From Ktedonosporobacter rubrisoli (GTDB lineage: Bacteria; Chloroflexota; Ktedonobacteria; Ktedonobacterales; Ktedonobacteraceae): 64,000 bases of DNA. The stretch spans positions 8,432,001 through 8,496,000 of the forward strand of contig NZ_CP035758.1 of assembly GCF_004208415.1 (NCBI RefSeq). The letters are read 5' to 3'. A program made the position numbers and the translations under genes. Under the pieces are notes generated by a model. It was not told where the DNA came from, did no database searches, and was given only the letters and a program-made list of their open reading frames with translations. Shown one piece after another: positions 32,776-58,342 of this stretch; the first letter of the stretch is position 1, and each line of letters starts with the position of its first letter.

Positions 32776-34173
32776 TTAACTGGTATTATCTGCAGTATAG
32801 GCTTGCTGTGCGGCGTCCTCGATCTGCTGCAAGACAGTATCGAGCTGCTTTTGATCCTCGATAAAGGCGAGCATGCCCTTCCAGAAAGCTTGCTGAACGA
32901 GGGGAGGCATCAGATCGCCGGCTCCAAACTTGATTGTATCGGCCTCGACCAGCATGCTAGCTGAGGCGCGAGCTACCGCGTTGGGATAGGCCTTGAGATC
33001 TAAGGACTTGTTAAGCGAGGTAAAGCCTCCACGCTTGACCCAGATCGTCTGAGCCTGGGCCGTCGCCAGATATTTGATGAGCTCACGGACCGCTTGCGTA
33101 TCTTTCATCGCTATGACCATATCCACACCGACAGTGATCGCGCCCTGATAGTGCGGGTTGAGCGTGGGAAAAGGGAAAAAGTCAAAATCGACCCCAGCTT
33201 TGGCACCGGGAAACTGGCTGGTGATAAAGCCGGCAGTAAAGTCGCCAAGATAATACATGTAGGCCTGCGGCGGTGTAGAGAACGGGGCAAAGCAGGCCTC
33301 CCGATAATCGGTGTTCAAGATAGTTTGGGGCGCGCCAGCGATATAATGCTTTCCGCCAACAATCTGGCCAAAGAGCTCAAAGGCCTGCTTAAGGCTTTTA
33401 TGTGTCCAGGGTATTTTGTGGGCCACCCACTGATCGTACATATCTGGACCAAATTGATTGAGGTAAATCTCGGCGATCCAATCGCTGGCAGGCCAACCGG
33501 TAGTCGTGGCGCTCGCAACGCCCATCGACCAGGGATATTTATTGCTGCTGGCGATGCTATCGGAAAGGGCAATAAGTTCGGGCCAGGTATGGGGGATAGT
33601 AGCATTAAGCGCCCGAAACTGCTGCGGATTATACCAGACCGTAGCCTTGTTGGCAGCCTTGAAGAGAAGCGCATAGAGACCACCCTTATAGCTGCCTAGC
33701 TCGATCCAGGCTCGTGCGTAATCCTTGCGAAACTGCTTCATATCAAGAAAGGTATCCAGGCGGATAAGATTATTCTGGCTGGCAAGCTGCTGTAATTTGC
33801 CGGGATTAGGGAGAATAGCGATATCTGGGGGACTATTGCCTTTGAGGCTGGTAGTCAGGGCAGAATCCAGATCGCGGGTTACTTCAAGGTTGACGGCAAT
33901 TTTTGTTCTGCTGGTAAAGGGCTCAACCACCGCGCGGAATGAAGCTTGCTCCTCTCCGCTCCAAACGTTGAGAACATCTACCGTATGGTCAGAGGCACTT
34001 GAGGAGCCGGTGTTATCCCCACATGCCACCAGTAAAGCTGAGGCGGAGCTGAAGGTCAAGCCCAACATAAGAGCGCGCTGCAGAAATTCGCGGCGACCGA
34101 ACGGATGCCTACTATAGTTCATAACCAGGCGGTCCAACTCATCCCGCTGACCGCGATCAGGTAATAGCATCAT
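32776..34173 (-). CDS. ABC-type extracellular solute-binding lipoprotein (family 1, sugar-like)
   Basis: 465 residues from ATG 34173, with GGAGGAGGG just before it. The cytoplasmic start of about 30 residues precedes RREFLQRALMLGLTFSSASA, a twin-arginine-like signal, and the lipobox LLVAC-G. The mature part has the Cluster B/family 1 pattern: VDVLNVWSGEEQASFRAVVE, NSPPDIAILPNPGKL, KATVWYNPQQFRALN, PHTWPELIALSDSI, GFITSQFP. Such proteins catch oligosaccharides or polyols for an importer. No permease or ATPase gene is adjacent, so the transporter must be elsewhere or the protein serves as a sensor. Divergent from the XRE/NB-ARC gene. Confidence 0.87.
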   Translation of the reverse strand: MMLLPDRGQRDELDRLVMNYSRHPFGRREFLQRALMLGLTFSSASALLVACGDNTGSSSASDHTVDVLNVWSGEEQASFRAVVEPFTSRTKIAVNLEVTRDLDSALTTSLKGNSPPDIAILPNPGKLQQLASQNNLIRLDTFLDMKQFRKDYARAWIELGSYKGGLYALLFKAANKATVWYNPQQFRALNATIPHTWPELIALSDSIASSNKYPWSMGVASATTTGWPASDWIAEIYLNQFGPDMYDQWVAHKIPWTHKSLKQAFELFGQIVGGKHYIAGAPQTILNTDYREACFAPFSTPPQAYMYYLGDFTAGFITSQFPGAKAGVDFDFFPFPTLNPHYQGAITVGVDMVIAMKDTQAVRELIKYLATAQAQTIWVKRGGFTSLNKSLDLKAYPNAVARASASMLVEADTIKFGAGDLMPPLVQQAFWKGMLAFIEDQKQLDTVLQQIEDAAQQAYTADNTS

Positions 34174-34633
34174 GACGCCCTCCTCCAATGCTCGTTTTTT
34201 GATCAGGTAGGTGCCACCCGCTGTTTCTAGGACTGATTACTATCCACAGTGTACAGGGAAATATTTTCTTGTCAAACATGTATTTTATTTTTTGCATCAG
34301 AGGAAATAATTTCGTCTGCTTCTCAGGAGAATTGCTGTCAGTTTTCGCTTCCTTCACCTGTCCTAAGTAATGGAGGGGATGAAGAAGACCAGAGGATAGC
34401 GCTCTCGGCTGCGACATATCCCTGTAATTATGCATGAGAAGCAAGCTCTCTGGCAATACTCTCATGAAAAGGCAAGGTTTTCCAGGACTCAGCAGCGCGG
34501 CTGGGCTCCAATTTTTCTCCTCTCTGCCAGGTGGCAAAAGCGCAAGGAGGAAAAGCCCGCTAGTGAAGAGTGCGTTTCACTATTTGCAGCGTGATCACGA
34601 TGATGGAACAGACGCGAAGAAAGGATGTACGAA
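34174..34633. other. Divergent control region
   Basis: 460 bases between the solute-binding protein and XRE/NB-ARC genes. Holds the minus-strand promoter at 34248-34275. No gene seen; the promoter of the plus-strand gene was not identified. Confidence 0.45.
34248..34275 (-). promoter_or_regulatory. Candidate promoter of the solute-binding protein gene
   Basis: On the minus strand TTGACA (34270-34275), 16-base AT-rich spacer, TACACT (34248-34253). Leader of about 70 bases to the ATG. Confidence 0.5.
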
Positions 34634-36355: not shown

Positions 36356-36394
36356 CTAGAAAAGGGTCCTGCTGGATGTTGTAAGGAGACAGTG

Positions 36395-36985
36395 ATGTCT
36401 TTGGCACATGGATCTGGAACCGATGGTCCTGCAGACGAGCGTATTCTTGTAATACGAGCTCAGAGGGGAAATCAAAGGGCCTTTGAAATACTCTATGAGC
36501 GTTATAATGATCGCATATGCCGCTATTTAATCCGTATGATAGGAAATGATGGCGTTGGTTGTGAGTTAGCCCAAGAGGCATTTATTAAAGCCTGGAAATC
36601 AATATTGAGCCTGCGCGATCCTGCCCGCTTTGGGAGCTGGCTCTATCGTATTGCCACTAATTGTGCCTATAACTACCATGAGCATGAGAAGAAGCGATTG
36701 CGCAATGTTTCATGGGAAGAATACGAGAAAGAGGGCAAAGGACCCGTTGCTGAGGGACCAGAGAGACAGGTGGAGGAGAGCGAGCTGATGAAGCAAGTCC
36801 TGGCGCAAGTATCGCCTACATATCGCCCTTGCCTTATTTTATATGTTGTGGAAAGGTTGCCACAGCGTCAGATAGCTGACCTGTTAGGAATAAAGGAATC
36901 GTCTGTGAGTCAGTATGTGAGTCGGGGAAAAGAAGAGTTTCGGCGGATCTATTACCGAATGAGCGGGAAGGGGCAAGGCAAATGA
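36395..36985 (+). CDS. ECF-type RNA polymerase sigma factor
   Basis: 196 residues from ATG 36395 (AAGGAG before it; a GTG one codon earlier is possible). Region 2 is GNQRAFEILYERYNDRICRY with AQEAFIKAWKSILSLRDPAR and WLYRIATNCAYNYHEHEKKR. Region 4 is LILYVVERLPQRQIADLLGI with KESSVSQYVSRGKEEFRRIY. Length and layout are those of ordinary group 4 sigma factors. Its stop overlaps the start of the next gene (ATGA), which encodes a zinc-finger anti-sigma factor, so the two are made together. An autoregulated promoter would be expected upstream, but its consensus cannot be read from one copy. Confidence 0.92.
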   Translation: MSLAHGSGTDGPADERILVIRAQRGNQRAFEILYERYNDRICRYLIRMIGNDGVGCELAQEAFIKAWKSILSLRDPARFGSWLYRIATNCAYNYHEHEKKRLRNVSWEEYEKEGKGPVAEGPERQVEESELMKQVLAQVSPTYRPCLILYVVERLPQRQIADLLGIKESSVSQYVSRGKEEFRRIYYRMSGKGQGK

Positions 36986-38328
36986 GACATCAACCCCCTT
37001 GCACGCAGTGGGCCGAGAAACTGGCTCTGCGTCCCGAGGATCTTTCTCCCGAAGATCAAGCCGCGCTTGAGGCCCATGTCAAAATATGCCCGCATTGCAC
37101 GGAGGCGCTTGCCGATTATCAATATTTTGATGCGCGTCTATCTGCCTTGCCTCCACCAACAATGAAGCCCTTGCCGCGCCTCTCCCCACAATTTTTCCTG
37201 GATGGCCAGATCATGGATGAAGAGCAAATCGAGGAAGATCTTCTCCCGGCTTCGGCTTTAGAGCGCAGCGCGGAAGCTAGCAGGGCGGCCAGGCGTCCAA
37301 GCCGCGTTGGCGCGTTCTTCAAGCGCGCTATCCCGAGTGCTATCGTTGCCTGCCTGCTTGTGGCTGTCCTTGTGCTCTTTACCAATGGAGGCCTGCGCAA
37401 TGCTGTTACCGGTAGCTCTTATGCTCCCGGCTCAAACGTTCTCACACTGAGCAACCATACGCAGGTGGCCGCAGTGGCCTGGTCACCCAATGGAGCCTAC
37501 CTTGCTACCAGCGATTGGGATCACACGGTCAGTATATGGGATGCGCATAAGGGTTCATTGCTGTATGTCTATAACGGACAGAGCGATATTGTCGATGCCC
37601 TGGCCTGGTCGCCGGATAGTAAATATCTGGCCTGTGGAAGCTGGGATAAGACGGTTCAGATCATAGAAGCCAGTTCGGGCAATCTCATCACGACGTACCG
37701 CGAGCATACAAGTAAAGTCGTCTCGGTCTCCTGGTCGCCTGACGGAAAATACATTGTTTCGGGAAGCTGGGATGATACTGCCCGCGTGTGGGATTCTGCC
37801 AATGGCCATACCGTGCAGGTCTATCGGGGCAGCGATATCGTCGATAGCGTGGCCTGGTCACCCAATGGCAAATATATTGCTTTAGGCAGTTGGGATGAGA
37901 CCGTGAAGATATGGTCCCCCTTCACAGGAGCCATTATACGAACCTATATGGGCCATACCGATCAGGTAAATGCGGTAGCCTGGTCGCCTAACGGAGAATA
38001 TATTGCCTCGGCGGGTCGCGATCAGACAGTCCAGGTCTGGAAAGTAAGCAATGGAGAACTGCTTACCACCTATAAAGAGCATAAATTTAACGGTTATGGA
38101 CGGGCAGTAGATAGCGTGGCCTGGTCGCCGGATGGAGAATACATTGCCTCTGGTGGCCATGACGATACCGTACGCGTCTGGAATGCGCTTAACGGCACAA
38201 CAGCCATGGTCTTTAAGGGCCATACAGATCTAGTAGATAGCGTGGCCTGGTCGCCGGATGGGCACAGGCTGATCTCGGGAAGCTGGGATGATACTGCCCG
38301 CATCTGGCAGGTGCTGAATGGCAACTAG
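36982..38328 (+). CDS. Transmembrane anti-sigma factor with extracytoplasmic WD40 propeller
   Basis: 448 residues. The N-terminus carries a zinc-finger anti-sigma (ZAS) motif H32-x3-C36-x2-C39 (AHVKICPHC). A basic linker follows, then one membrane helix at about 116-136 (IPSAIVACLLVAVLVLF). Residues 150-448 are seven WD40 repeats, each with VAWSPxGxY and GSWDxTVxIW-type blades, enough for one closed propeller. With N-terminus inside, the propeller is outside. The known part is ZAS sequestration of ECF sigma factors. The unusual part is a seven-bladed propeller as sensor. It overlaps the sigma gene by 4 bases. The signal could be a ligand, polymer or protein bound by the propeller. Confidence 0.9.
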   Translation: MRHQPPCTQWAEKLALRPEDLSPEDQAALEAHVKICPHCTEALADYQYFDARLSALPPPTMKPLPRLSPQFFLDGQIMDEEQIEEDLLPASALERSAEASRAARRPSRVGAFFKRAIPSAIVACLLVAVLVLFTNGGLRNAVTGSSYAPGSNVLTLSNHTQVAAVAWSPNGAYLATSDWDHTVSIWDAHKGSLLYVYNGQSDIVDALAWSPDSKYLACGSWDKTVQIIEASSGNLITTYREHTSKVVSVSWSPDGKYIVSGSWDDTARVWDSANGHTVQVYRGSDIVDSVAWSPNGKYIALGSWDETVKIWSPFTGAIIRTYMGHTDQVNAVAWSPNGEYIASAGRDQTVQVWKVSNGELLTTYKEHKFNGYGRAVDSVAWSPDGEYIASGGHDDTVRVWNALNGTTAMVFKGHTDLVDSVAWSPDGHRLISGSWDDTARIWQVLNGN

Positions 38329-42430: not shown

Positions 42431-44866
42431 TTAAGCTTTGCGCATGTTGAGCTGCCAGAAGTCGGCGGTGGGATGATTGAGATCGCTGGCTCCGCGTACA
42501 AGAAAGGCATGGCCCTTCCCATCACACACGGCGATGCCCAGAACAGAGCTGCCCGCAGGAAAGGTGGTAAGCGGCGCGTGTTTCAAGGTGCGTAGGTTGA
42601 GCAGCCAGGCCTGGCCCAGAGGAATGTTATGCGATGCCTCATAGCCTCCCACGATGAGGGCCTGCGTATTGGAAAGCTGGCAACTGGCAGCAGCGCTGAG
42701 CGCTCGGGGCAAGGTAAATAGCGCCTGCGACCAGCTATTTTGCGCAAGATCGTAGCGATAGATTCTATCGGTTTGATGCTGCTGCTGAACATCGCCAGCC
42801 CCGCCCAGGAGAAGAATCCCTCCATCGTTATCAAAAGTTAGGAGCATGTAGCCAAGGCGATCGGGCAGGGGTGCCAGCGCGTGCCATTGTCCCTGCTCAA
42901 TATCGTAGCGATACCAGCCCATCCCGGCCTGAGCATGCTCATTGTTGGTGCTCATAAAGCCCTGGGAGACGTAGAGATGGCCCTTTTGATCCGCAAGCAT
43001 GGCAGAGCCAAAGCCTAGCTTTATCTGCTTAGGCGGCACGATCTTGCGTATCGTGTTGTCGTCGAGCTGATACATATAGAGGAGCGAGGGGACGTTAAGA
43101 TCGTTGGCCGAATAGCCGGCCGTAAAAAAGATATGGCCCTGCCCATCCTGAACTGCCGCATTATTTACCATGCCCGGGAACTTTTCAACCACAACTTGCT
43201 CCCAGTGTGCGGCCTGAATATCGTAGCGGTAGAGACTGTTATCGTAGCGTGGAGATGCTGTTGGACCACGATAGCCGCCGCTCATATAGATGTACGCTCG
43301 GCCATGTAGTTCAACATAGACAGCCGTATTATCGGCCTCAGGTGAGGGCAAAGGCGGCAAGGCCTGCCACAGGTCACCCTTTGTTTGCGCCGGCGTGGTC
43401 GGCTGTGGCGTGCTTTGTAGCGGCGCTGTGCCGGGGAGACGATAGCCGAAGCTCACATAAGCCTGGAGGAGAGCCAGGGCCAGAAACAGCAGCAGGGCAA
43501 GAATAAAGCCGAGTTTCACGGCGAGGGGCACGATACGTCGTGGCTGGGCTGGCAGAATCTCGCTCTGCTTAGGAGCCTCAACGCGTGGCAAAGCCACCTG
43601 CGAGAAAGATGTTGTAATTGCCCGACGCTTCAAGCTCTCATCTACAAGATCCAGATGCTCTTGCTCCAGGCGATCCTGGCGGGCAAGATGTAGCGCTTCG
43701 CGAAGCTGTCGGCGCTGTTCTAAATTGCGCACTGGCGGCTCAATAGCGGCAGCTGGCAGGGGCGTGCTGGTGAGCAAAGGAATCTCCTGGGGATGGGTCA
43801 GGCGAGCGCGCAGCAGACGAGATGAGCGCGGCGTCAGGCGTATAGTTTCGTCTGCTTCCTCAAGGCTATCAAGAGCATATGAAGGCTTATCAGCCTCCCC
43901 GGCCCGCTGCCTGTAGAGCTTGTGTTCCTCGATATGATATGCGCGCTCCAGGGCAAGATAGAAGGTGTGGGCCGATTGGAAGCGGTACATAGGTTCCGTG
44001 CGCGTGGCCAGCTTAATCAGTCCACTAAGGACCGCCGAAACGGTAGGATTGTGCATATCCTCAACGCTGCCAATGAAGCCGGGTAGACCGCCAGTGCGCT
44101 TACCGTGCAACATCTCGGCCAGGATCACGCCAAGGCTGAACAGGTCAGAACGTCCATCGGTCTGGCCTTCGCCATGGTACTGCTCGGGCGAAGCGTAGCC
44201 GGGCGAGCCAAAGTCAGTAGTATCGTTAATCTGGCCCTCTTTGAAATAGCGCGCGATGCCAAAGTCGATGAGTACCAGGGAGCCATGAGGCGTAAGCATA
44301 ATGTTGGATGGCTTGAGATCGCGAAAGACAATGGCTGGCGACTGATTATGTAAATAATCGAGGACATCGCACAACTGCATCGCATAGTCCAGTGCTTCCA
44401 GGGGAGGCAAAGGAGAGCGCTGACGTAGATACATACTAAGATTGGTACCGGGTATATAGTCCATCACGAGGTACCAATAGCCATCTTCAAAGAAATAGTC
44501 GTAGAGCGTCGGAATAGCCACGTGCTGGAGGCGCGTGAGCAGCAAGGCCTCGCGTAAGAAGCGGTCAGTATGGATACCGCCGCTAGAAGGAAAATCGGTT
44601 CCTGGCAGCCGACCACCACAGGAACGCTTGCTGCTTTCTCCCCCGTGCAGAATATAATCTAGCTCAGCTATAACACTTTCTGGCAGGGGTTGGTCTGAAC
44701 GTCCCTGTTTGAGCGCTAACGGAATATTGAGCGAAGTATGCATGGCCAGGTAAACATTTCCCATGCCGCCATGCCCCAACACACGCTCAACAATGTATTC
44801 CCCATCATGTAAGGTATGTCCGACGAGGCTCTCCTGTTGCCTCTGCTTCCCTTGCGTACCGGCCAT
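42431..44866 (-). CDS. Transmembrane Ser/Thr kinase with extracytoplasmic Kelch-like propeller
   Basis: 811 residues from ATG 44866 (AAGGGGGAG upstream; a TTG 12 codons earlier is possible). The kinase spans about 15-310: glycine loop LGHGGMGNVY, IPLALKQ lysine, catalytic loop FRDLKPSNIM (His of HRD replaced by Phe, Arg-Asp kept), DFG in LIDFGIARYF, and activation segment GSPGYASPEQY. An unusual insertion of about 45 residues with GGESSKRSCGGRLPGTDFPS lies between the Lys strand and helix C. A 130-residue linker leads to a membrane helix near 448-470 (LGFILALLLFLALALLQAYV). The outer 315 residues show Kelch blades (WQALPPLPSPEADN, YRYDIQAAHWEQV, WHALAPLPDRLGYM, LLLGGAGDV, ALIVGGYEASHN). It acts as a receptor kinase. 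Confidence 0.9.
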   Translation of the reverse strand: MAGTQGKQRQQESLVGHTLHDGEYIVERVLGHGGMGNVYLAMHTSLNIPLALKQGRSDQPLPESVIAELDYILHGGESSKRSCGGRLPGTDFPSSGGIHTDRFLREALLLTRLQHVAIPTLYDYFFEDGYWYLVMDYIPGTNLSMYLRQRSPLPPLEALDYAMQLCDVLDYLHNQSPAIVFRDLKPSNIMLTPHGSLVLIDFGIARYFKEGQINDTTDFGSPGYASPEQYHGEGQTDGRSDLFSLGVILAEMLHGKRTGGLPGFIGSVEDMHNPTVSAVLSGLIKLATRTEPMYRFQSAHTFYLALERAYHIEEHKLYRQRAGEADKPSYALDSLEEADETIRLTPRSSRLLRARLTHPQEIPLLTSTPLPAAAIEPPVRNLEQRRQLREALHLARQDRLEQEHLDLVDESLKRRAITTSFSQVALPRVEAPKQSEILPAQPRRIVPLAVKLGFILALLLFLALALLQAYVSFGYRLPGTAPLQSTPQPTTPAQTKGDLWQALPPLPSPEADNTAVYVELHGRAYIYMSGGYRGPTASPRYDNSLYRYDIQAAHWEQVVVEKFPGMVNNAAVQDGQGHIFFTAGYSANDLNVPSLLYMYQLDDNTIRKIVPPKQIKLGFGSAMLADQKGHLYVSQGFMSTNNEHAQAGMGWYRYDIEQGQWHALAPLPDRLGYMLLTFDNDGGILLLGGAGDVQQQHQTDRIYRYDLAQNSWSQALFTLPRALSAAASCQLSNTQALIVGGYEASHNIPLGQAWLLNLRTLKHAPLTTFPAGSSVLGIAVCDGKGHAFLVRGASDLNHPTADFWQLNMRKA

Positions 44867-45234
44867 AGTACGTCTCCCCCTTCCACTTCCCATGATGCCC
44901 AATAGAATAGAATTGTGCGGCCCTGCCTACATAAAGCTCCGGCTGCACAGGCGGGTAGTGTTATTGATAAAAGTCTGGCGAGAAAAACACGAAGCCTTTA
45001 GCTGCCGTGATAGCTCGCACTTGCTGCCTGCCATTGTACCATCCTGTGATAGTGCCAGAGGCATCTTATTAATAGTAACGAAGGATACCAGCAGAGTCAA
45101 CAAGTAAACAGGACTATATCAATACATACAGTCCTACAGCTCTGCAGCTGAGCATTTTCTCCTTAAGTATAGTATAGCTGAGCTAGTATATCGTGATGCG
45201 TTCTCTGGTTGATATCCACAGCTAAATGGCTGCT
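44867..45234. other. Leader and promoter region of the kinase-Kelch gene
   Basis: 368 bases. Apart from the promoter at 45072-45100 and a leader of about 200 bases, no gene or strong structure is seen. Confidence 0.5.
45072..45100 (-). promoter_or_regulatory. Candidate promoter of the kinase-Kelch gene
   Basis: On the minus strand TTGACT (45095-45100), 17 bases, TACTAT (45072-45077), giving a long leader of about 200 bases before the ATG at 44866. Confidence 0.5.
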
Positions 45235-56167: not shown

Positions 56168-58342
56168 TCATTTTTTCTGTTCGGGAGCCTTTAGAACCTG
56201 GATGGTATAGGCATCCTTATCCTGGAAAAAGTTGACAAGGAAGCGGCTATTGGGGGACCAGAGCAAACCCTCGGGGTACGAGCTTCTATCCCCAAAGGGC
56301 GTATTGCTGGCATCATAGGAGCCGGCCTGTTTGCCTGTAGACGCGTGCCAGAACTGAATTGTATGCTTTGTATCATTCATATAGTGGGCGGCAATATACT
56401 GACCGTCTGGTGACCAGGTGATGCTGCCCAGAGCCGCGTTAGAATCGCCATAGAGCCATTCGCATAGAAAGATGCGCTGCCCACTCTGACTATCTACCAC
56501 CTCGATAGCGATATCTTCCTGGGCCAGCACAGCCAGGCGACTGCCCCCGGGCGACCAGGCGGCCATGGGGGGATAGCTATACCACACGTGGTAATCTTTC
56601 TGGAAAAGCGTATTGCCGTTGCGGGTATCCCAGACGCTAATGTGGCCGCTGTTGCGACCGGAAACTATATATTTGCCATCGGGAGACCAGCTTAACCAGA
56701 GATGGGAATGCTCGGAACTGGGCTGATAAGCCAGGTGAAGTTTCTTCTGGGTGACATCCCATATCTTGATAGATCCGCCATTGTGGGCAGCCGCGAGTTT
56801 CTGGCCATCGGGAGACCAGGCGAGATAAACGATAGAGCTACTTTTACTTGCCTCGTCCTTGGGAGCGCTGTATGTGGCAACAACCTTTTTTGCGCGCATA
56901 CTCCAGACCTGAATATCAATATCATTACTCAAGGCTAGATGATCTCCATCGGGAGACCATGAGAGAGCCTGAGCGCCCAGTTCAGGCAGTTGGTAAGCAT
57001 GGGATTGCTTTTTGCTGGTAGCTGGCTGCAGGATTTTGACTGTAGCATTCATCGCCAGGGCAAGCTTGTTTCCATCAGGAGACCAGGACATTTGATAGAT
57101 GGGGGAAGCGAGCCTATGCTCCTGGACAAGATGCTTGAGCAATAAATTAGCATCATTAGCGTCATTGGAAAGGCTTTCTTTCCACCATTCAACGCCTTGC
57201 TCTAGAACTAGTCCGGCCACGCCGGCGAGCGCGATAGAGGCAATGCCCCGCTTCAAAAAGATTCTGCGCCCTTTTTGTTGCGGGTGGACCATTTGCATCT
57301 GCTGCTGAGCCAGCCCTGGTGCAGAGCCGGAGGGGGTATAGAGAGGAAGATCGCCCCGATCGAGCTGATCTAGAGGAGGCGGTGGCTGCTTTGGGTCCCA
57401 GATACGCTGATTGACGCCCCTGCGTTCTTGCTGAATCTCGCGTAACCTATCGGCGACCTGGGCAATACTTGCCGGACGCTTATCTACCTGTAACTCGACC
57501 ATATGTGAGATAAGTTGCTCAAACGACTTGAGCGATGGGCCAGAAAGAGAAAGCGGCGTAAACTGCAAAGGTGCCTCGGTAGGATCGATGCCGCTGATCA
57601 TCTGGTGCAGAATGACTCCCAGGCTGTAAATATCGGCCCGCGCATCAGTCTGGGCCCTCCCATACTGCTCAGGAGCAGCGTAGCCCGGCGAACCAAAGGG
57701 AATAGTATCACGGCTGCTTGCCCGTTTGAAATGGCGTGCAATGCCAAAATCGACAAGCGCGTAGGAGCTATCATCGCGGCGAATAATATTGCTGGGCTTG
57801 AGGTCGCGAAAGATCACCGGAGGCGTGCGGCTGTGTAAATAATGAAGGATGTCGCAGACCTGCAGTCCCATATGAAGCGCCTCATCTATCACGCTATCAG
57901 AAGCTGATAGGCTATGTTCGCGCTCAAGTAAGTAGTGTTCAAGGGTCTTGCCAGCGAAATAGTCCATAACGAGATACCAGTGCTCGCTATCCTCAAACGT
58001 ATCGCGCAAGTGGGGAAGGCGAGGATAATCCAAGGCGGCAAGCATAACGCGTTCGCGATTAAAGGTTTCGGTTGCTTCAATAATTTGTTGCGTGCTAAGG
58101 CCGCTCAGCTTGATCTGCTTGATAGCTACAAGTTCGTGAGCATTGCTGATATCTTGGGCGCGGTAGACCACTCCGAAACCGCCACCGCCGATCTGTGCGA
58201 GCAGTCGGTAGCGTCCATGAAGCAGCGTTTCCTCGGAGGCCTCTTCTCCGGTCGTTAGCGGATGGTGGCAAACGAAGCAAGTTGTGTGCTCTTGATTATT
58301 TGCGGCCCCGCAAACAGAGCAGTATAACAGATGGCCTGGCAT
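56168..58342 (-). CDS. Zinc-ribbon Ser/Thr kinase with internal Tat-like anchor and WD40 propeller
   Basis: 724 residues. Residues 8-25 hold a zinc ribbon (CSVCGAANNQEHTTCFVC). The kinase covers about 43-300: IGGGGFGVVY, VAIKQIK, IFRDLKPSNI (Phe for His, Arg-Asp kept), ALVDFGIARHF, FGSPGYAAPEQ. After a Pro-rich linker, residues 356-380 read GRRIFLKRGIASIALAGVAG, a near-perfect twin-arginine consensus (RRxFLK) followed by a hydrophobic stretch, in the middle of the protein. Residues 410-724 form seven WD40 blades (SWSPDGNKLAL, AWSPDGQKLAA, SWSPDGKYIVS, TWSPDGQYIAA). The propeller should be outside. Whether it crosses by Sec or, folded, by Tat is open. FHA protein and anti-sigma WD40 share this architectural theme. 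Confidence 0.9.
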   Translation of the reverse strand: MPGHLLYCSVCGAANNQEHTTCFVCHHPLTTGEEASEETLLHGRYRLLAQIGGGGFGVVYRAQDISNAHELVAIKQIKLSGLSTQQIIEATETFNRERVMLAALDYPRLPHLRDTFEDSEHWYLVMDYFAGKTLEHYLLEREHSLSASDSVIDEALHMGLQVCDILHYLHSRTPPVIFRDLKPSNIIRRDDSSYALVDFGIARHFKRASSRDTIPFGSPGYAAPEQYGRAQTDARADIYSLGVILHQMISGIDPTEAPLQFTPLSLSGPSLKSFEQLISHMVELQVDKRPASIAQVADRLREIQQERRGVNQRIWDPKQPPPPLDQLDRGDLPLYTPSGSAPGLAQQQMQMVHPQQKGRRIFLKRGIASIALAGVAGLVLEQGVEWWKESLSNDANDANLLLKHLVQEHRLASPIYQMSWSPDGNKLALAMNATVKILQPATSKKQSHAYQLPELGAQALSWSPDGDHLALSNDIDIQVWSMRAKKVVATYSAPKDEASKSSSIVYLAWSPDGQKLAAAHNGGSIKIWDVTQKKLHLAYQPSSEHSHLWLSWSPDGKYIVSGRNSGHISVWDTRNGNTLFQKDYHVWYSYPPMAAWSPGGSRLAVLAQEDIAIEVVDSQSGQRIFLCEWLYGDSNAALGSITWSPDGQYIAAHYMNDTKHTIQFWHASTGKQAGSYDASNTPFGDRSSYPEGLLWSPNSRFLVNFFQDKDAYTIQVLKAPEQKK

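Follow-up and report, generated by a model that had tools for sequence, protein, structure and literature searches.

Dual Sec-Tat membrane proteins were reportedly described by Keller in 2012. They include the actinobacterial Rieske protein Sco2149, the MoCo protein Sco3746 and a polyferredoxin (Tooke 2017, PMC5449189). In the Sco2149 type, the twin arginines (RR) follow two or four Sec-inserted transmembrane segments (TMs) and precede a last, weakly hydrophobic and uncleaved TM, the folded C-terminal domain lies outside, and exchange of RR for KK blocks export (PMC5449189). The mid-chain signal of the Streptomyces Rieske protein reaches the TatBC site and carries the C-terminal domain across the membrane (PMC13186574, PMC5449189). 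The 2017 screen required an even number of transmembrane domains before the RR, sorted its candidates by that number and does not mention kinases (PMC5449189). Rieske proteins are established Tat substrates because they receive their cluster while still in the cytoplasm (review PMC7317946), and those with one N-terminal, uncleaved anchor likewise combine RR, a weakly hydrophobic anchor and an exported, folded Rieske domain. The kinase-TM-WD40 architecture is also known, from Planctomycetota, Cyanobacteria and PkwA-type kinases (PMC11032199, PMC5587647), which have a cytoplasmic Hanks kinase, a single TM and a WD40 propeller predicted to lie outside, and for which a Tat signal is unreported.

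The protein described here is encoded in a window of 64,000 nucleotides (the whole stretch of DNA analysed) from Ktedonosporobacter rubrisoli (NZ_CP035758.1). It has the domain order of these WD40 kinases, whereas the non-Ktedonobacterial examples that we compared have ordinary anchors. With the Sco2149 type it shares an internal RR before the last, weakly hydrophobic TM and, as we predict, an external folded C-terminal domain and the lack of cleavage; in contrast to that type, what precedes its RR is a soluble kinase without any TM. The preliminary description had regarded this mode as undescribed for bacterial receptor kinases. This needs qualifying: internal Tat signals are already known from the actinobacterial Rieske protein and related polytopic proteins, but their use behind a soluble cytoplasmic kinase was not found described, and it is this placement that would be new. 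In the literature searched, with preprints and most subscription journals outside its scope, we found no account of an internal Tat signal in a kinase or behind a soluble cytoplasmic domain, and none of this arrangement under Ktedonobacter and Tat or Rieske and kinase.

Anatomy of the kinase and its internal Tat-like segment

The 724-residue reading frame opens with ATG on the minus strand, is uninterrupted between kinase and propeller and encodes, in this order, a zinc ribbon, a Hanks-type kinase, a linker, G-RR-IFLK, an uncharged stretch and a seven-bladed WD40 propeller (Table 1). A related kinase (L270) gives a Pfam match to Zn_ribbon_3 (E 4e-5), which bears on the N-terminal four-cysteine motif of the window protein. 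The Pkinase model matches residues 45-256 (E 1e-38); the catalytic residues VAIK72, FRD178 and DFG198 are intact, and APE is also kept. WD40 and beta-propeller models cover about residues 412-724 (PF00400, E 4e-19 on the C-terminal part), with seven blade motifs of the W-S-P-[DG]-G type at residues 420, 462, 509, 552, 596, 643 and 695.

Table 1. Features of the kinase gene (coordinates within the window).
Feature	Coordinates	Strand	Basis
Whole gene (724 aa): zinc ribbon, Ser/Thr kinase, internal Tat-like anchor, WD40 propeller	56168..58342	-	Sequence and Pfam
N-terminal zinc-ribbon-like four-cysteine motif (C8, C11, C22, C25)	58268..58321	-	Sequence
Hanks-type kinase domain, residues 45-310: G-loop, VAIK (72), FRDLKPSN (178), DFG (198), APE	57413..58210	-	
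Pro/Gln low-complexity linker, residues 311-353	57284..57412	-	Sequence
Twin-arginine motif G-R-R-I-F-L-K, residues 358-364; RR at 57263-57268	57251..57271	-	Sequence; retained by paralogues and relatives
Uncharged hydrophobic stretch GIASIALAGVAGLVL, residues 366-380	57203..57247	-	Sequence
Seven-bladed WD40 propeller, residues about 412-724	56171..57109	-	Pfam and blade motifs

The junction between kinase and propeller reads QQMQMVHPQQKGRRIFLKRGIASIALAGVAGLVLEQGVEWWKES. The preliminary description had noticed a Tat-like motif here, some 356 residues into the chain, and the motif is real: GRRIFLKRG carries the RR at residues 359-360, followed by 15 uncharged residues. G-RR-I-F-L-K and the stretch behind it fit the pattern (S/T/G)-R-R-x-(hydrophobic)-(hydrophobic) plus uncharged stretch. 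Residues 1-357 comprise only the zinc ribbon, the kinase domain and the polar linker, so that no Sec-inserted TM precedes the motif, and the anatomy behind it corresponds to a final TM of the Tat type in an internal position, with a folded domain C-terminal of it. No AxA cleavage site follows residues 366-380 in the window protein. Another Ser/Thr kinase of the window (42431-44902, minus strand) has an ordinary TM anchor, PRRIVPLAVKLGFILALLLFLALALL, and can serve as a control from the same window.

Distribution of the segment among kinases and other proteins

The 11.34-Mb genome, a single contig, contains 124 Pkinase matches in a Pfam search, from which, with the fetched regions, 107 distinct kinase-bearing ORFs were collected and compared by their first hydrophobic segment C-terminal of the kinase; for loci L001-L030 the flank was only 1.5 kb and some C-termini are incomplete. 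Membrane segments were called from Kyte-Doolittle averages without a trained predictor, and the motif rules were 'TATFIND-like'. L028 and L208 counted as TM-bearing by hydropathy and were dropped, as their segments are charged or Pro/Thr-rich linkers. In 13 of 13 kinase-TM-WD40 proteins of the genome, all with a Pfam-confirmed WD40 C-terminus, RR directly precedes a weakly hydrophobic, Ala/Gly-rich segment (for example SRRSLLLAAG, SRRNMLIGAA, TRRYLLVAGT, KRRTVLIGGA and GRRIFLGGLL), and the window kinase is thus one of a set. When these segments are aligned, only one position, an R of the pair, is invariant. Most of the remaining TM kinases have Leu/Ile/Val-rich anchors, and the motif is generally missing from WD40 kinases without a TM. 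The general Tat models TIGR01409 and Pfam TAT_signal (PF10518) each detect 1 of the 13 paralogues, at E about 2, and neither matches the window segment; a match to such models is a detection aid more than a definition of a Tat signal.

TatC is encoded in the genome (E 2e-59) with an adjoining TatA-like ORF. Beside tatA and tatC (L031:2284-3607, minus strand) lie an ORF for an ECF-type sigma factor and one for a 110-residue protein that contains VSRRRVMRLVAMGSVGVGILSAG; this protein may be an anti-sigma factor, and its own Tat-like segment could report Tat activity. The preliminary description had cited the solute-binding protein at 32776 as a sign that this motif type is used in the genome, and rightly so: the protein (32776-34188) carries FGRREFLQRALMLGLTFSSASALLVACGD, an N-terminal Tat signal of the normal lipoprotein type, with LVAC at its end. 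Three stand-alone WD40 lipoproteins (L303, L305, L306) also have N-terminal Tat signals with a lipobox cysteine. All these signals share (S/T/G)RRx(F/L)(L/I) and an Ala/Gly-rich h-region with the kinase segments; they differ in being N-terminal and followed by a lipobox cysteine, whereas the kinase segments are internal and lack a lipobox.

Across the 43 genomes of the class that were searched, with redundant segments removed before counting, the WD40 kinases come from 20 genomes and 10 genera (by locus handles), all in the family of the window's organism. RR stands before 42 of 43 WD40, 21 of 21 Rieske and 2 of 2 PsbP-like segments, compared with 17 of 49 in other TM kinases (Fisher p 3e-11 for WD40 and 7e-8 for Rieske). 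Only one of these 66 cargo-bearing segments departs from RR, and it has an ordinary anchor, which means that KR, RK and KK never substitute for the pair; since lysine makes up 34 of the 86 basic residues just upstream of the segments, the unbroken RR is not simply a matter of two positive charges. The median segment hydropathy is 1.84, whereas other TM kinases reach 2.53 (Mann-Whitney p 5e-13); such low hydrophobicity is typical of Tat signals. A combined criterion of RR position, a hydrophobic residue at +4 and hydropathy below 2.4 is passed by 41 of 43 WD40 segments and 1 of 49 others; only 6 of 21 Rieske segments pass it, since the RRR found there puts the motif out of register. When a weight matrix is derived from 19 N-terminal Tat signals of the K. 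rubrisoli genome and its RR columns are left unscored, it still separates WD40 (p 3e-6) and Rieske segments (p 2e-7) from other TM kinases. RR alone is ruled out as the signal by its presence before 17 of 49 ordinary kinase TMs, so position, hydropathy and cargo are needed as well. Taken with low hydrophobicity and position, RR hardly occurs in kinases other than those that end in a WD40 or Rieske domain, which goes beyond chance.

The relatives are not independent of one another: the kinase tree requires a minimum of eight changes of the Tat label, yet only five well-supported independent pairs differ in cargo, of which about four on average agree with the association of cargo and motif and none disagrees (p about 0.06-0.125); five pairs are too few for significance. 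The pattern may in part reflect descent of a module in which segment and propeller were already joined, and movement of such a module among kinases would inflate the counts, yet leave the fixed RR unexplained.

Three TM kinases of the genome without WD40 repeats (L054, L071, L084) have a C-terminal Rieske [2Fe-2S] domain with intact CxH...CxxH. They are among the few other kinases with a Tat-like segment (GRRRTVAWLAAGG, NRRQAMALLVSGG and RRRTISLLATG). The same arrangement of kinase-like domain, segment and Rieske domain was found with one Rieske member as query in 23 further genomes, most genomes of the family, and every readable relative carries RR ahead of an Ala/Gly-rich segment. They differ from N-terminally anchored Rieske proteins in that a kinase-like domain of about 300 residues and a linker precede the anchor. 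The HRD and DFG aspartates are missing in every Rieske member with readable motifs, unlike in the window kinase, and the kinase-like domains of these proteins (L054, L071, L084, L223-L246) look like pseudokinases; the family has the appearance of an external iron-sulphur redox module with a kinase-like domain attached. In L233 and L242, from two genomes of one genus, the kinase-like and Rieske parts are in different frames, through a frameshift, a split gene or an assembly error.

Further proteins carry comparable segments. L247-L251 are polytopic membrane proteins of the DoxD/DoxX type with an internal SRRNFL or TRRDFI segment and a C-terminal Rieske domain, and are candidates for further dual Sec-Tat proteins. 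Two non-kinase proteins of the genome have a Tat-like segment about 145 residues in, L127 between an N-terminal domain that by eye is ubiquitin-like (YukD-type) and a WD40 domain, and L107 between a helical and a Rieske domain. In the kinase L270, a Tat-like segment is followed by a solute-binding-protein domain (SBP_bac_11, E 2e-6), and in L017 and L072 by a 'PsbP-like' domain, a label rather than an assignment, as the C-terminal domains gave only a sub-threshold Pfam match to PsbP_2 in L072 (E 0.07).

Beyond the class, ordinary anchors occur in the WD40 kinases examined from Nostoc, from Candidatus Chlorohelix and from three further Chloroflexota that are not Ktedonobacteria, a small sample that includes L262, L269, L272 and L276; the segment of the Chlorohelix kinase has RRR and a hydropathy of 2.73. 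L179, a WD40 kinase of the same order but a different family, also has an ordinary anchor. From this comparison, the Tat-type joint looks like a feature of Ktedonobacteraceae. Non-kinase WD40 proteins with ordinary, strongly hydrophobic anchors occur in the K. rubrisoli genome itself (window 36982-38328, L310, L311). With the examples from outside the class, they rule out that WD40 domains must use Tat; the propeller fold does not require Tat. At window 36392-38328 (plus strand), behind an ECF-type sigma factor, lies a membrane protein whose N-terminus is anti-sigma-like and which has an ordinary strong TM and a complete WD40 propeller.

Proposed route of membrane insertion and its alternatives

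We propose, with a probability of roughly 70%, that residues 358-380 act as an uncleaved internal Tat signal-anchor that leaves the kinase inside while the propeller is exported folded by Tat, giving an N-in/C-out receptor. The kinase would require little beyond what the Streptomyces Rieske protein does: hairpin models of Tat signals keep their N-terminal end in the cytoplasm, and a domain attached N-terminally of the signal can for this reason stay inside. According to this hypothetical scenario, (i) the zinc ribbon, kinase and linker would be synthesised in the cytoplasm and remain there; (ii) the propeller would fold in the cytoplasm; (iii) TatC would recognise the twin arginines from the cytoplasmic side; (iv) the hydrophobic stretch would enter the membrane as a hairpin and Tat would move the folded propeller across. 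The product would be a single-span receptor kinase with the propeller as its external sensor. The internal Tat signal suggested in the preliminary description is thus favoured on comparative grounds, namely the near-invariance of RR, the low hydrophobicity, the Rieske analogues, which give the strongest support, the presence of tatA and tatC and the WD40 lipoproteins with Tat signals. On the other side stand the poor detection by general Tat models, the WD40 propellers behind ordinary anchors and the small number of independent pairs on the kinase tree.

An ordinary Sec/YidC signal-anchor, with arginines that follow the positive-inside rule, a propeller that crosses unfolded through Sec and an RR kept as a family heirloom, appears unlikely to us. 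It would fit the RR before about a third of ordinary kinase TM segments (17/49), the WD40 propellers that follow ordinary anchors here and in other genomes, and the Planctomycetota WD40 kinases, whose WD40 domains are predicted to be periplasmic with no mention of Tat (PMC11032199). However, it sits poorly with an RR that persists in 65 of the 66 divergent segments without ever being swapped for a K-containing pair, with a hydropathy below that of typical anchors here, and with the same segment type ahead of Rieske domains. The uncharged stretch of the window protein, only 15 residues and short for a membrane span, counts against a Tat anchor and would suit a peripheral or re-entrant membrane tether that keeps the propeller in the cytoplasm beside the kinase, where WD40 kinases without any TM presumably also reside. 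Such a tether gives the strict RR no reason, though, and both the Rieske relatives and the stand-alone WD40 lipoproteins suggest an outward position; we judge it very improbable.

Hardly to be expected is a third origin, in which the RR segment is a relic of an exported WD40 or Rieske protein fused behind a kinase, or marks a shorter product from an internal ATG. Stand-alone WD40 proteins with N-terminal Tat signals do exist, and two in-frame ATGs (codons 349 and 351) lie 8-10 codons ahead of the window RR. A relic should drift, yet the RR is near-invariant over at least 10 genera, and a separate internal start codon is ruled out as a general explanation, since in 32 of 69 loci the 40 codons ahead of the RR contain no ATG, and in 64 of 69 no start codon is preceded by a ribosome-binding-like site.

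Implications for receptor assembly in the family

The internal Tat anchor may well, by a narrow balance of judgement, serve as an exchangeable joint that links modules in the cytoplasm or membrane to sensors exported in the folded state, defining a class of receptors that Tat assembles post-translationally and that includes external iron-sulphur redox sensors connected to kinase-like domains. Held with the same slight preference, its inner modules would comprise active kinases, Rieske-coupled pseudokinases, a ubiquitin-like module and DoxD/DoxX proteins, and its sensors WD40 propellers and [2Fe-2S] Rieske domains. If the proposed Tat anchor is correct, the topology of Tat substrates would extend to proteins whose N-terminal domain is large, soluble and cytoplasmic, a point of relevance to signal binding by TatC from the cytoplasmic side, and predictors that consider only the N-terminus would miss such substrates. 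The family would also offer a natural set of constructs for asking why propellers use Tat or Sec. Tat, and not Sec, would then insert an entire class of bacterial receptor kinases, whose ectodomains would be folded, and in the Rieske form also metallated, ahead of export.
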